Origin: Candidatus Aenigmatarchaeota archaeon
GTDB taxonomy: Archaea > Aenigmatarchaeota > Aenigmatarchaeia > CG10238-14 > SCSR01
Direction of reading: 5' to 3'
Length of the DNA: 64,000 bases
Assembly: GCA_016181005.1 (NCBI GenBank)
Contig: JACPAE010000003.1
Location: 66,215 to 130,214, forward strand
The notes below the pieces were generated by a model. That model was not told where the DNA came from, did no database searches, and was given only the letters and a program-made list of their open reading frames with translations. Both the position numbers and the translations under genes were made by a program. Below are positions 6,788 through 12,474 of the stretch, piece after piece. Position 1 is the stretch's first letter. Each line of letters starts with the position of its first letter.

Positions 6788-7219
6788 TTAGACATCAAGA
6801 ATGACTTCTGCCTTCCATCCAGATTTTGTTTTTAGAACTTTGAAATTATGCAGACTAACTGCCTTTACATCTACCAGCAGTTCATGCTTTCTCATGTCTA
6901 GTTTTTCACCACTTGCCTCTGATTTCAGCTTGTATATTCCTTTCATTTGAGTAATCTCGATTTTGAACTTGCTAAACAAAAGCAGCTTCGCGTCTTTCAA
7001 GAAAATCAGCTCCTGCAGGAAATTGAACAAGAGCATCTCGCTGCTGTCACCGTCCACAGCTATTTTCCTTTTGACTCTTGACTTGACCGACTTGAGGTCT
7101 TTTACTTGTGTGTTTGTTACTGCTAACGCTGAAGATTCGAACATTTCTTCCATGGTCTTGCCAGCGGCTTCAAAAGCCACGTCAGCTATTGCGACGTCTT
7201 CCAAGAATTTGTAGGGCAT
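6788..7219 (-). CDS. Archease (RtcB activator)
   Basis: The 143-aa sequence matches archease from end to end: N-terminal YKFLEDVAIADVAFEAAG (family: Y-x-FLEHTADI...), central LLFNFLQELIFLKD, and C-terminal D-x-RKHELLVDVKAVSLHNF...GWKAEVILDV. Archease is known to speed RtcB guanylylation and allow multiple turnover by coordinating metal at the ligase active site. The first acidic motif reads DVAIAD instead of the common HTADI, so one metal-ligand position may differ. It starts 2 bases after the stop of unknown gene X and lies two genes downstream of rtcB on the same strand. A functional link to RtcB is therefore expected. Confidence 0.85.
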   Translation of the reverse strand: MPYKFLEDVAIADVAFEAAGKTMEEMFESSALAVTNTQVKDLKSVKSRVKRKIAVDGDSSEMLLFNFLQELIFLKDAKLLLFSKFKIEITQMKGIYKLKSEASGEKLDMRKHELLVDVKAVSLHNFKVLKTKSGWKAEVILDV

Positions 7220-7221
7220 AA

Positions 7222-8208
7222 TTATATTTGCACATGTGGTACTAAATAATCTTCAACGCCACTATACGAGTCTGTAAATAATCGTTGGTAACTTCTTTGG
7301 CCTTCTTGAGCATGTACCACAGATGAAAACTTCCACAACAACAACTCCCTTTCAGCTTCTTGCAGATTTCTTTCTTCAGGTTTGTAAGAGCCTTTAGGAA
7401 AGTAGAGCTTTATTACTTGATTTCTCAATCTGTCGTCAAAAGTTGCCAACATCCTACCTGGTATAAGAAATGGGCTGCGGACTATAGTATCTGAGGTTTC
7501 TAACCTAGACAATTCAACTGCTGTAAAAGCTGCAACCACGTGGTCGTCAGCGAAATAGCCTTCTGCTCGAAGTTTATATTCTCTATCTTCGCAAGCATGA
7601 TGTGGCTCTATTCTATGCCAAGGTTCGCCAGAGCCTTGTGTGGATAAATTATTGAATCTTATTGTATACCTCTTTACTTCTTCCATTGACCGTGATGGTA
7701 ATCTTACAACAGCTTCCGGGCCATAGTTCCGTACTTCTATCCTATCTCCTATACCAAGTTGAGGGAATAATTTTGTAACGGCATAGTATAGTCGACGTCC
7801 GTCTAATATAGCTGTCAAAGGAACATAGATGCGAGGAATATCTGCAGATTTCCAACTATATGCTCTTGTGTAATCGTCTGGTAAAATATATTGCATACGA
7901 CTTCTGAAATTTGCTTGTGGATCTGTTGCCCTTGTATTTAGCGATATTATATTAGCATACCTCCAGAATTTTTTGAAATCTCTATCCAATCTTCTTCTAC
8001 CAAATCGTGTAGTTATTTCGCCTGGGATTAAATCATGTTCTGGGGGAATGAAAAACAAATCTTCCTCAGTGGAAATAGCGATTCGCCGAGGCAAACCAGC
8101 ATTAGTAAGTTCACTGCCAGATAAGACCACATGATTAGTATATGTTCTCTTCTTTTCTGCTGTAGATGGATTTTCGAATATTGATACTCTGATATTGGAA
8201 TCGGCCAT
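7222..8208 (-). CDS. Unknown protein X between rtcB and archease
   Basis: The 328-aa product is not recognised. It is soluble, with no signal peptide or membrane segment, and rich in Arg and aromatic residues. A central stretch (GDRIEVRNYG..AVVRLPSRSMEEV) looks like a beta-barrel or SpoVT/PUA-like element, but I cannot assign a family. Base composition is more AT-rich than rtcB. The stop is 2 bases from the archease start, implying joint transcription of the two. A TATA box inside the end of rtcB gives it a leaderless promoter of its own. Its place between a ligase and its activator makes an RNA-related role possible, but nothing in the sequence proves it. Confidence 0.6.
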   Translation of the reverse strand: MADSNIRVSIFENPSTAEKKRTYTNHVVLSGSELTNAGLPRRIAISTEEDLFFIPPEHDLIPGEITTRFGRRRLDRDFKKFWRYANIISLNTRATDPQANFRSRMQYILPDDYTRAYSWKSADIPRIYVPLTAILDGRRLYYAVTKLFPQLGIGDRIEVRNYGPEAVVRLPSRSMEEVKRYTIRFNNLSTQGSGEPWHRIEPHHACEDREYKLRAEGYFADDHVVAAFTAVELSRLETSDTIVRSPFLIPGRMLATFDDRLRNQVIKLYFPKGSYKPEERNLQEAERELLLWKFSSVVHAQEGQRSYQRLFTDSYSGVEDYLVPHVQI

Positions 8209-8239: not shown

Positions 8240-9787
8240 CTAGCCCTTGACATTTCCTATAGGAACGAACTTGACAACCTTTTTGGAGATACCAGACATA
8301 TGTGTCGCTTCAATGACATCGTCTATATCCTTATAAGCACCACCTGCTTCTTCGGCCAAGCCGGAAAATGAAACTGACTTGATGTAAATTCCTCTTTGCA
8401 TCATTTCCTTCTGTAGCTTGTCGCCACTGTAAATATTCCTTGCTTTCGTCCTACTCATAGTCCTTCCACTGCCATGTGCCGTCGACATGAAGGTTTCGTG
8501 TGCTTTTTCGCCACCAACCAAAAGGTAAGAGCCGGTTTCCATACTACCGCCAATTATGACTGGACTTCCATCATCACGATATAATTTTGGAATTTCTACT
8601 CTTCCAGCAGGATAAGAGCCGGTTGAGCCTTTTCGATGCACGATCAACTTCTTTTTCTTTCCGTCAACTTCATGCTCCTCCAAGCTTGCACGGTTGTGGG
8701 AGACGTCGAAAACCATTTTCAATCCCAATGATTCTGCATCCTGCTTGAAAACATCTGAAAAAACTTCCCTTATGCGGTGAAGAATAACTTGACGGTTGGC
8801 AAAGCTCATGTTAACACCCCCAGCCATTGCCTTGAAGTAATCCTGTCCTTCAGGTGAATTGAAGGGTGCACACGCTAGTTCCTGGTCCAAAATTTTAATC
8901 CCATACTTCCTTTCCATCACTGACAGAAATAGCTGCAAGTAATCTGTGCCTATTTGATGGCCGAAACCGCGCGAGCCGCAATGAAACATTATTACAACTT
9001 GATTTGGAAACAGTCCCCATTTTTTAGCTAGTTCTTGGTCAAAAATATTCTCTGGCTTTACAACTTGTATCTCAAGATAATGATTGCCTGAACCTAAAGT
9101 GCCAATTTGCTTAAAGCCTCGCTCAATGGCTTTTGAGGAAACTTTTGAAACATCTGCCCAATCAGCTTTTCCATTCAGCTCAGTTCTTTCTAAATCTTCT
9201 TCCCATCCATAACCTTTCTTAATACACCATTCTGCACCCTCGACAACAACTTTTCTGAATTCATCCTTTGTCAATTTCACAAAACCAGTGGAGCCGACAC
9301 CAGCAGGCACCCTGTCGAATAATTTATCGACCAAAGTCTTCAAATGAGGTTTAACATCATTATAAGTAAGGCTAGTTAAGACCAAACGCATACCGCAATT
9401 AAACGACTTGATTAAGAAATTACTTAACCAAAATATCGAATCCGATACCGCCTGGTGATATCACACCGTTCTCTTCCGGATCGAATGCTGCTACACCGCC
9501 TATCGGAAATCCGTACCCGGAATTGCCTCCTTCTAGGATTAACTAGAAAGGATATGACCGTCGGGCATGCAGAATGCAAATTTTTGGATTCCTGGCAAGT
9601 TGGCAACATTTGTTATCTGGTCGTATACCTGCAAGTCCATTTGATCTACAATTTTCTTTGAGGCATATATTCTAGACGGGACTCTCATTCCTTCTTTGAA
9701 GGATTTAGGTATTTCCCAGACTACGTCTGATATCTTCTTAATTTCTGGTTTCTTGAATATTTGATTACCGAATGGTATTTTCTTCAC
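8240..9787 (-). CDS. rtcB: RtcB tRNA-splicing ligase, gene split by two small introns
   Basis: RtcB joins 2',3'-cyclic phosphate and 5'-OH RNA ends using GTP and Mn2+; in archaea it ligates tRNA exons. The proposed coding sequence is complement(join(8240..9401, 9433..9521, 9554..9787)). It totals 1485 nt, exactly 495 codons (494 aa plus stop), the usual archaeal length. Exon 1 ends CMPDGH, exon 2 encodes SGYGFPIGG through GIGFD, and exon 3 resumes NCGMRL. The spliced protein has the catalytic Cys at 110 (Cys98 in Pyrococcus horikoshii). The metal and GMP-binding His motifs follow: SGNHYLE (His215), [11 protein letters not shown] (His248), VSHNRAS (His343) and TAHGSGR (His417). Without splicing, exon 1 stops five codons after PDGH. 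The start is GTG at 9787, two bases beyond the TAA of the upstream gene, with GGAGG directly abutting. A decayed pseudogene is unlikely because every exon is intact. Confidence 0.9.
9402..9432 (-). other. rtcB intron 2 (31 nt, canonical bulge-helix-bulge)
   Basis: In the mRNA the exon helix GAUU/AAUU is followed by a 4-bp central helix CGAU/GUCG, with a 3-nt bulge AUU on the 5' side and UUU on the 3' side. A 9-bp intron stem (UUGGUUAAG/CUUAAUCAA, one G-U pair) and a 6-nt loop follow. This is the hBHBh' substrate of the archaeal splicing endonuclease. Cutting between bulge nucleotides 2 and 3 on each side removes 9432-9402 and joins GAT-AT|T-AAT-TGC, giving D-I-N-C in frame (phase 2). The unspliced sequence has an in-frame TAA inside the intron. 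Confidence 0.85.
9522..9553 (-). other. rtcB intron 1 (32 nt, relaxed bulge-helix-bulge)
   Basis: Removing these 32 nt joins GGT-CAT|TCC-GGG-TAC, encoding G-H-S-G-Y, the conserved RtcB sequence PDGHSGYG (phase 0). The intron core is a hairpin (UCCUUUCUAG/CUAGAAGGA, one bulged U, 6-nt loop UUAAUC). Outside it are bulges AUA and AUU and a shortened central helix GUC/GGC with a G-A mismatch. An AC/C internal loop follows, then the exon helix GCCCG/CGGGU. This is not a perfect motif, but it places cuts after the second bulge base exactly at the boundaries needed by the protein. The junction could shift by one or two bases without changing the spliced RNA, because exon and intron ends repeat. Confidence 0.7.
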
Positions 9788-9791
9788 CTCC

Positions 9792-10325
9792 TTAAAGGTC
9801 TAAATTGATTCCTTCCAACAATCTATCAAAGTCTTCCCTCTCGCTCTTTTTCCTAGGCTCCATACCTAGCACATCAGCCATATTCTCTAGCAGTCCGATG
9901 TGCTCGGCACCTATATCTGGCATCAATCCGATTATTGCTTCGCTTCCGCTATATCCCCAAACTACAATAGGCAAGGACCTTGCATCCCGGTCTAGGAGGC
10001 CAACAGCTCCTCTTTCTTCATAACGCTTTTTGACTATTTTAAAATATCCTGTTATATCCCCTATCCTATAAACATCTGTTGCTTGATAATTTTCCGAGTT
10101 TAACCTTTCGACTAGACGCTGCATTGCTTCTTTACTATAAGAGCTCTTTCTCCCAAAAAACACTATGTTCAATCTGTCCGCGCCTAAGAACTCTTCGGTA
10201 CCCGTGCCTACAAATCTATATCCATAGTCCGCTGCAATTCTGTCTAGTATGTCATGCCTGCCTCCAGCGTGTTCGTCCTCGATGTATAACTTGTATTTTC
10301 TCAACTCTTCCAGAACTTCTTGCAT
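9792..10325 (-). CDS. Unknown protein upstream of rtcB
   Basis: The 177-aa soluble protein is not recognised. It has an alternating alpha/beta pattern (LNIVFFGRKSSYSKEAM, then LPIVVWGYSGSEAIIGLM) and a C-terminal acidic helix. No membrane segment or known catalytic motif is visible. Its TAA stop is 4 bases before the rtcB GTG start, and the rtcB ribosome-binding site overlaps this junction, so the two genes are almost certainly co-transcribed and translationally coupled. A TATA box lies 26 bases upstream of the ATG. Confidence 0.65.
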   Translation of the reverse strand: MQEVLEELRKYKLYIEDEHAGGRHDILDRIAADYGYRFVGTGTEEFLGADRLNIVFFGRKSSYSKEAMQRLVERLNSENYQATDVYRIGDITGYFKIVKKRYEERGAVGLLDRDARSLPIVVWGYSGSEAIIGLMPDIGAEHIGLLENMADVLGMEPRKKSEREDFDRLLEGINLDL

Positions 10326-11715: not shown

Positions 11716-11848
11716 CATATTTACTAAGGATTTTTCTTTGTATAGCTGTAGCTTCTTCTAATGTAATCGTCTTTTTAGGTGCTCTTACCTTTACATTATG
11801 ACCATTAAGCCTGATTGTCTTTATTTCAAAATCTTTGTCATGTCTCAT
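11699..11848 (-). CDS. Small unknown 49-aa protein divergent from the toxin-antitoxin module
   Basis: A longer frame reaches 11944, but the internal ATG at 11848 is preferred because a TATA box (CTTATAAATA) lies 24-32 bases upstream of it. The longer start would also run into the antitoxin operator. The peptide is basic, with a KTITLEEATAIQRKIL helix and a KKSS tail. It is not recognised; a small regulator or toxin-antitoxin partner is possible. Confidence 0.4.
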   Translation of the reverse strand: MRHDKDFEIKTIRLNGHNVKVRAPKKTITLEEATAIQRKILSKYAKKSS

Positions 11849-11870
11849 AAAGAGTATATTGTCGATGACG

Positions 11871-11880
11871 TATTTATAAG
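11871..11880 (-). promoter_or_regulatory. TATA box for the 49-aa gene
   Basis: CTTATAAATA on the minus strand is centred about 27 bases from the ATG at 11848. It lies back-to-back with the toxin-antitoxin promoter. Confidence 0.45.
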
Positions 11881-11901
11881 TATTATTAGGCGGAGTGATG
11901 A

Positions 11902-11911
11902 GTTTATATAC
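11902..11911 (+). promoter_or_regulatory. TATA box of the RHH/RelE module
   Basis: GTTTATATAC is centred about 26 bases upstream of the antitoxin ATG, predicting a leaderless transcript that starts inside the palindrome. Confidence 0.5.
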
Positions 11912-11912
11912 T

Positions 11913-11934
11913 ATAGATACCAATTGGTATCTAT
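11913..11934 (+). promoter_or_regulatory. 22-bp perfect palindrome, likely antitoxin operator
   Basis: The core GATACCAATTGGTATC is extended by ATA/TAT on its two sides to a perfect 22-bp inverted repeat. It overlaps the predicted transcription start and the first two bases of the antitoxin ATG. Ribbon-helix-helix antitoxins are known to autorepress by binding such repeats. Confidence 0.65.
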
Positions 11935-12181
11935 GAAACCTCAAATTAATCTGAGATTACCTGGCGAATTGAAAAGAGTTGCCGAGAGGTATGCAAGAAT
12001 ACATAAATACAGGAATCTGCAAGAACTAGCCACAGAAGCCATAAGAGAGAAGGTTATGGAAAAGGGTTACGACGAAAGTTTTACTGAGAAGGAGATTGAA
12101 CTAATAGACAGATTAATAGATGCTAGTATAAAAAAGGGGGATTTGGTAAGTGAAAAAGAGTTGAGAAAGGCTTTGAGATGA
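11933..12181 (+). CDS. Ribbon-helix-helix antitoxin
   Basis: The 82-aa product starts MKPQINLRLPGELKRVAERY, a typical RHH beta-strand and first helix, then RNLQELATEAIREKV. Its acidic, flexible C-terminal half would wrap the toxin. An upstream in-frame ATG at 11798 is rejected because the palindrome and TATA box place the transcript start at 11933. It overlaps the RelE-like toxin by 4 bases (ATGA), which is characteristic of toxin-antitoxin pairs. Confidence 0.8.
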   Translation: MKPQINLRLPGELKRVAERYARIHKYRNLQELATEAIREKVMEKGYDESFTEKEIELIDRLIDASIKKGDLVSEKELRKALR

Positions 12182-12474
12182 CCTATGAAATAGTAGCGAG
12201 TGGAACATTTCTCAAGCAGGTAGAAAATTTACTACCCAAATATAAAGAACAAATTGACAAGAAAATTGATTTGATAAAACAAAATCCGTTCAGATTCAAG
12301 GCACTACATGCCAAGCTATATTCAAGAGTATTTAGAGTAAGACTGGATATAGGAGGCAAGGGGACTAGATTAATTTATGTTGTATTAGGCTCGAAAATAA
12401 TTTTGGCTTGTCTTCTTGATAGAAGTAAAGAGTATAAAGATTTGGAGAATTACTTGGTTAAGATTGAAGGTTAA
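12178..12474 (+). CDS. RelE/ParE-family toxin
   Basis: The 98-aa protein has the RelE/ParE pattern: YEIVASGTFLKQVENL, a helix pair ending IKQNPFRFKALHAKL, then FRVRLDIGGKGTRLIYVV and a final LLDRSKEYKDLENYL. RelE-type toxins cleave ribosome-bound mRNA; ParE-type act on gyrase. The subtype cannot be decided from this sequence. It is translationally coupled to the antitoxin. Confidence 0.8.
   Translation: MTYEIVASGTFLKQVENLLPKYKEQIDKKIDLIKQNPFRFKALHAKLYSRVFRVRLDIGGKGTRLIYVVLGSKIILACLLDRSKEYKDLENYLVKIEG

Follow-up and report, generated by a model that had tools for sequence, protein, structure and literature searches.

How an archaeal cell could obtain a full-length RtcB ligase from a gene that cannot be read straight through is the question raised by this locus. 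The window analysed, a stretch of 64,000 nt, belongs to a host genome of 740 kb in five contigs (92% complete); among named organisms, groundwater Candidatus Aenigmatarchaeota are its nearest relatives. The rtcB gene lies on the minus strand at 9787-8240, and its unspliced reading yields an 82-residue fragment followed by a stop, with the remainder in shifted frames. A preliminary description of this DNA had proposed that rtcB is interrupted by two tiny mRNA introns, leaving three pieces in different frames broken inside the motifs PDGH|SGYG and GFDI|NCG.

The interrupted rtcB gene

Frameshift-aware alignment to an intact orthologue of the same genus, with gaps of any length allowed, confirms the three pieces and both break points. 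Exactly two inserts were found by this comparison, one of 32 nt directly after PDGH and one of 31 nt within GFDI|NCG. All five segments lie on the minus strand. Exon 1 (9554-9787, 234 nt) begins with GTG at 9787-9785 and ends in ...PDGH, as delimited by the orthologue, and is followed by intron 1 (9522-9553, 32 nt, ATCCTTTCTAGTTAATCCTAGAAGGAGGCAAT). Exon 2 (9433-9521, 89 nt) ends in ...GGIGFDI, its last codon being split 2+1 by intron 2 (9402-9432, 31 nt, TTTGGTTAAGTAATTTCTTAATCAAGTCGTT), while exon 3 (8240-9401, 1162 nt including the stop) runs from NCGMRL... to the C terminus and alone matches PF01139 with 447.6 bits.

Excision of 9553-9522 and 9432-9402 leaves 1485 nt, corresponding to 494 residues and a stop. 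The earlier statement that removal of 32 and 31 nt restores an intact RtcB therefore stands, with the correction that its figure of 495 codons includes the stop. When one insert is removed and the other kept, the product is still truncated. Against the Pfam RtcB model the unspliced pieces score 473 bits and the spliced protein 540 bits; the latter aligns with solved RtcB structures over nearly its full length. With residues numbered as in Pyrococcus RtcB, this structural alignment would place intron 1 two codons 3' of the active-site aspartate D65 and intron 2 between the metal-binding residues D95 and C98. With regard to the start codon, a ribosome-binding site, AAGGAGGTG, overlaps the GTG (window 9770-9800, minus strand); since the start codon used by relatives corresponds to an ATA in this gene (9778), the actual start may be ATA.

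An error of assembly or sequencing, or a decaying pseudogene, could produce a gene of this appearance. The host genome is metagenome-assembled, and two other genes of the same assembly hold inserts of 23-26 nt that may be errors: uS11 (G000 C5:172613-172635, 23 nt) and nth (C2:58668-58693, 26 nt), where frame-breaking tandem duplications reflect either assembly error or recent mutation. These two were considered as introns and rejected, being plain tandem duplications without the BHB motif described below, with BHB scores of 5 and 6. The rtcB inserts are not duplications, and short inserts with BHB geometry are found at the same motifs in 25 other genomes. Moreover, relatives of the same genus and of the same family also bear inserts, so that an error peculiar to one assembly is not the explanation; the genomes compared are themselves metagenome assemblies. 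The preliminary description had named a second intact rtcB, with this copy decaying, as one of the findings that would speak against introns. No second rtcB was found in the host genome, the interrupted copy being the sole one, and dN is far below dS in every exon. Against G001 and G003, two genomes of the same genus in which rtcB is uninterrupted, the exons give pN of 0.02-0.09 and pS of 0.44-0.88 (0.09 and 0.52 for exon 1, 0.03 and 0.88 for exon 2, both against G001). All three exons are under strong purifying selection and the gene is not decaying. Error or pseudogene is, on this evidence, highly improbable.

Two further classes of element were rejected as the identity of the inserts. Group I or group II introns do not agree with a size of only 31-32 nt, and Rfam finds one tRNA only in the window. 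Inteins are likewise incompatible, given that lengths of 32 and 31 nt disrupt the frame and bring in stops.

BHB motifs and the probable splicing machinery

Archaeal EndA recognises a 4-bp helix between two 3-nt bulges, the BHB motif, and cuts between bulge nucleotides 2 and 3 (PMC6379350; PMC2738675). At intron 2 the motif is canonical (GAUU CGAU AU^U ... GUCG UU^U AAUU, ^ marking the predicted cuts; 9397-9442, minus strand) and is contained in the minimum-energy fold, with a local fold z of -3.1 and 0 of 200 shuffles as stable. Its BHB score of 30 ranks first among 2070 possible nearby cut pairs, the alternatives giving an equivalent protein reaching at most 0. At intron 1 the motif is relaxed (GGUC AU^A ... 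GGCA AU^U; 9521-9559, minus strand), consisting of three central pairs and a G.A mismatch that closes the central helix, together with a strong inner helix (UCCUU/AAGGA) and no adjoining outer helix. Here the score is 18, compared with 5 and 7 at the -1 and +1 registers and at most 7 for equivalent-protein alternatives, with a local fold z of only -0.8 and a central pairing probability of 0.15 in a 240-nt context. Relaxed BHB motifs are known in this family (PMC6379350). In both introns the cut pair after bulge nucleotide 2 that restores the full RtcB frame coincides with the BHB cut sites, the registers one nucleotide to either side scoring far lower, and the junctions given earlier, GGT-CAT|TCC and GAT-AT|T-AAT, are those of the BHB register. 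Because the preliminary description made no mention of these motifs, they constitute independent evidence.

The enzymes expected to act on such motifs are encoded in the host genome. EndA is represented by one gene of 188 residues, with a PF01974 match at G000:C5:69040-69318 (E 4.6e-27), and its nearest solved enzymes are archaeal EndAs, including that of Methanocaldococcus (close to 1a79). This single short protein resembles the homotetramer type, whereas efficient cutting of relaxed motifs is ascribed to the two-subunit and fused EndA types (review, PMC6379350). A single-gene EndA facing the relaxed, weakly folding motif of intron 1 is a point against splicing by EndA at that intron. Several tRNAs of the host genome carry BHB introns.

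Downstream of rtcB in the same cluster lies a gene for archease, the RtcB cofactor (6788-7219, minus strand; PF01951, E 9.4e-37), the two being separated by an uncharacterised ORF of 328 aa (7222-8208, minus strand) with no Pfam match. No T4-type RNA ligase scored above the cut-off in the host genome. The sole remaining RNA ligase candidate, of the PF09414 type, is a weak, below-cut-off match in a 573-residue frame that is, judging by its length, probably the DNA ligase. The RtcB ligase available is encoded by the interrupted gene itself only, and since it is the only RNA ligase of its kind found in the genome, RtcB would be required beforehand to mature its own message.

The mechanism proposed is as follows. 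EndA would cut each exon-intron border of the rtcB pre-mRNA after nucleotide 2 of the 3-nt bulge, and RtcB, with archease, would join the exons as in tRNA splicing, so that the spliced message would give the intact 494-residue RtcB. The preliminary description had RtcB ligating the introns; it is the exons that RtcB joins. Under this scheme pre-existing RtcB would be needed for making new RtcB. The interpretation as mRNA introns gains support from frame-restoring junctions that are BHB cut sites, from the presence of EndA and of BHB introns in tRNAs, and from inserts of relatives with compensatory pairing (see next section). It is very probable that both inserts are archaeal BHB introns of the rtcB pre-mRNA, cut by EndA and joined by RtcB; splicing itself, the two enzymes as its agents and the self-dependence of RtcB are what we infer from sequence.

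Recurrence in relatives and in other genes

A copy of rtcB is present in 136 of the 156 genomes of the class, Aenigmatarchaeia. Only those rtcB matches that were broken, contained stops or started late were inspected, and the insert counts are therefore lower bounds. On this basis, in at least 20 Aenigmatarchaeia genomes the two motifs hold 25 short rtcB inserts, 13-34 nt long, all 25 with a frame-restoring cut pair in the BHB register. This comparison of related rtcB genes, which the preliminary description had suggested, argues that the inserts are not a product of chance. Their exact positions vary, with three positions at most 9 nt apart at the first motif and several at the second. The rtcB inserts of G011 (contig C80, L039), likewise in BHB register, are just 16 nt and 13 nt long, which is very short even for BHB introns. 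Outside the class, at least 6 of 89 rtcB-bearing Nanoarchaeia genomes (the class of a Woesearchaeota genome) contain 8 further rtcB introns, and in one of the six the second motif also holds an intein. No such inserts were seen at either motif in bacterial RtcB genes belonging to the same subfamily.

Pairing is maintained while the sequence changes. Inserts at the position of intron 1 occur in 11 other genomes, and the 12 introns at this same first-motif position display compensatory changes at each of the five inner pairs and in one of the four central pairs, position 2 of the central helix varying between C-G, U-G and U-A. The distribution is patchy, some close relatives being without rtcB introns. 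Mapped onto a phylogeny of 64 RtcB proteins, intron presence must have changed at least 15 times, and well supported branches make 14 of these changes unavoidable, which indicates frequent gain, loss or transfer.

Going beyond the preliminary description, the same kind of intron was found in metK of the host and is widespread in the group. Gene-by-gene comparison with a same-genus genome revealed a 32-nt BHB insert in the host metK at GHPD|KICDQ (G000 C1:14420-14451, outside the window), and one in rnhB of the genome compared, at GIDEAG|RG. Introns of this type are present in metK of 7 genomes, host included, and, with lengths of 19-34 nt, at the GIDEAGRG motif of rnhB (RNase HII) in 12 genomes (G003, G091, G050, G052, G039, G047, G008, G015, G010, G064, G061 and G036). 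In G009 and G011, 18-nt inserts with a stop occur at the same rnhB motif; these were not properly scored. The total comes to 52 BHB introns in three genes across two DPANN groups, always in catalytic motifs and rather uniform in their short length, mostly 28-34 nt.

For the 33 introns scored in rtcB, metK and rnhB, the mean BHB score is 23.1 in the true register, taken as the best of the 1 to 6 registers giving an equivalent protein, a choice that inflates the score somewhat and far less than the gap seen, against 3.1 and 3.2 at -1 and +1. The local background is 2.1 +/- 5.3 (standard deviation). Of the positions in these introns, 89% of the central and 91% of the inner ones are paired. The accepted cbf5 intron, serving as positive control, scores 40 and 42 at two Desulfurococcales loci. 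As a sole detector, a genome-wide BHB scan combining structure and open frames was discarded, its 2548 hits being too many by chance and codon usage providing no separation. Several N-terminal "inserts" reported by the frameshift aligner were also rejected as neighbouring genes or unalignable starts. One strong BHB-like structure (G000 C1:173848-173885, score 27) lies in a probable rRNA region, possibly as an rRNA processing stem or a small intron.

The metK motif harbours a second feature. In 14 related genomes (G061, G063, G146, G133, G074, G091, G111, G039, G098, G083, G046, G079, G112 and G015; L272-L287) GHP|DK coincides with CAT CC(T/C) TGA CAA, a conserved sequence containing an in-frame stop and a single additional base. 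Within it, CCU UGA C resembles a site of programmed +1 frameshifting, at the same motif that holds a BHB intron elsewhere. Recoding may accordingly exist in the group, and the ribosome might skip the rtcB inserts by programmed bypassing or frameshifting, the RNA staying uncut. Ribosomal bypassing depends on a match between take-off and landing codons. Intron 1 has CAT as the take-off codon and AAT as the triplet before resumption, an unmatched pair that led to rejection of a bypassing site. Furthermore, bypassing has no need of 3-nt bulges that flank a short helix and lie exactly in register for EndA, yet this arrangement is present in 33 of 33 scored introns. Skipping by the ribosome is extremely unlikely as the explanation, and splicing remains the reading adopted.

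Role, origin and relation to known systems

The introns may be more than passengers, a proposal compatible with splicing. If splicing efficiency reported the activity of EndA and RtcB, the introns could set the RtcB level by feedback. The presence of two introns in the ligase's own gene and their repeated occurrence at two rtcB motifs fit such a role, and the cbf5 intron was earlier proposed to be a negative regulator (PMC2738675). Their patchy presence, the many changes on the RtcB tree and the close relatives without introns count against it, as do similar introns in metK and rnhB, genes with no link to ligation. Given this distribution, most introns are better seen as passengers; they probably persist as near-neutral elements, often gained and lost at active-site motifs, and a regulatory role is possible, if rather unlikely.

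As to origin, also compatible with splicing, the introns could be what is left of mobile elements (homing introns that have shrunk, for instance), near-neutral and targeted to conserved active-site codons as inteins are. Inteins of 1.3-1.45 kb interrupt rtcB at GFDI|NCG in several relatives (G019, G030, G044 and G054, at L045, L044, L051 and L049, and G243, L296), making the motif of intron 2 a hotspot common to inteins and introns. Another rtcB intein is located at FH|CGSRG in G002 (L041). The confinement of the introns of three genes to catalytic motifs and their patchy distribution agree with a mobile ancestry. Conversely, the rtcB genes surveyed yielded no larger BHB intron that carried a homing endonuclease, and the introns are short and rather uniform in length. 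We give this origin an even chance.

The closest known parallel is the BHB intron of the cbf5 pre-mRNA in Crenarchaeota, 16-39 bp long and with patchy gain and loss (Watanabe 2002; Yokobori 2009, PMC2738675). Like the rtcB introns, it is short, sits in a protein-coding gene, has a BHB motif at its borders with cutting between bulge nucleotides 2 and 3, and disrupts an active-site codon. The rtcB case differs in the gene, in the phyla (Aenigmatarchaeota and the Woesearchaeota group), in having two introns per gene and in that the host gene encodes the splicing ligase; in addition, the host here has a single-gene EndA, whereas cbf5 introns are linked to a hetero-oligomeric enzyme. The HVO_1309 transcript of Haloferax volcanii is also an mRNA substrate of archaeal EndA, but its BHB intron occupies the 5' UTR and leaves the coding frame unbroken (PMC7714728). 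Archaeal tRNA introns share the motif and the enzymes expected and are present in the host genome, but in tRNA rather than mRNA. The RtcB inteins share the GFDI|NCG site in relatives, but they are in frame, about 1.3-1.45 kb long and removed from the protein rather than from RNA.

According to a 2020 study, cbf5 of Crenarchaeota carried the only archaeal mRNA BHB intron reported, besides that study's own 5'-UTR case (PMC7714728). The preliminary description knew of no intron in rtcB, and no description of mRNA introns in rtcB or DPANN was found in the searchable literature, from which bioRxiv and most subscription papers fall outside, so that an earlier description may exist elsewhere. Within this scope the features that look new are the host gene, its interruption by two introns, the self-dependence of the ligase, the phyla concerned and how many genes are affected. 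On balance we lean slightly towards a broader proposition, namely that tiny BHB introns are common in DPANN protein-coding genes at catalytic-motif codons (rtcB, metK, rnhB and perhaps more), and that in rtcB they would close a loop in which the ligase is needed to mature the mRNA that encodes it, a state that would sustain itself and be passed on together with the protein. Gene callers probably annotate such genes as broken or truncated. The dependence of RtcB on RtcB for its own message would offer a directly testable case of self-dependence in RNA splicing, and insertion motifs common to inteins and introns bear on how introns arise.

Elsewhere in the window, at 11798-12474 on the plus strand, two adjacent small ORFs look by eye like a RelB/RelE-type toxin-antitoxin pair.
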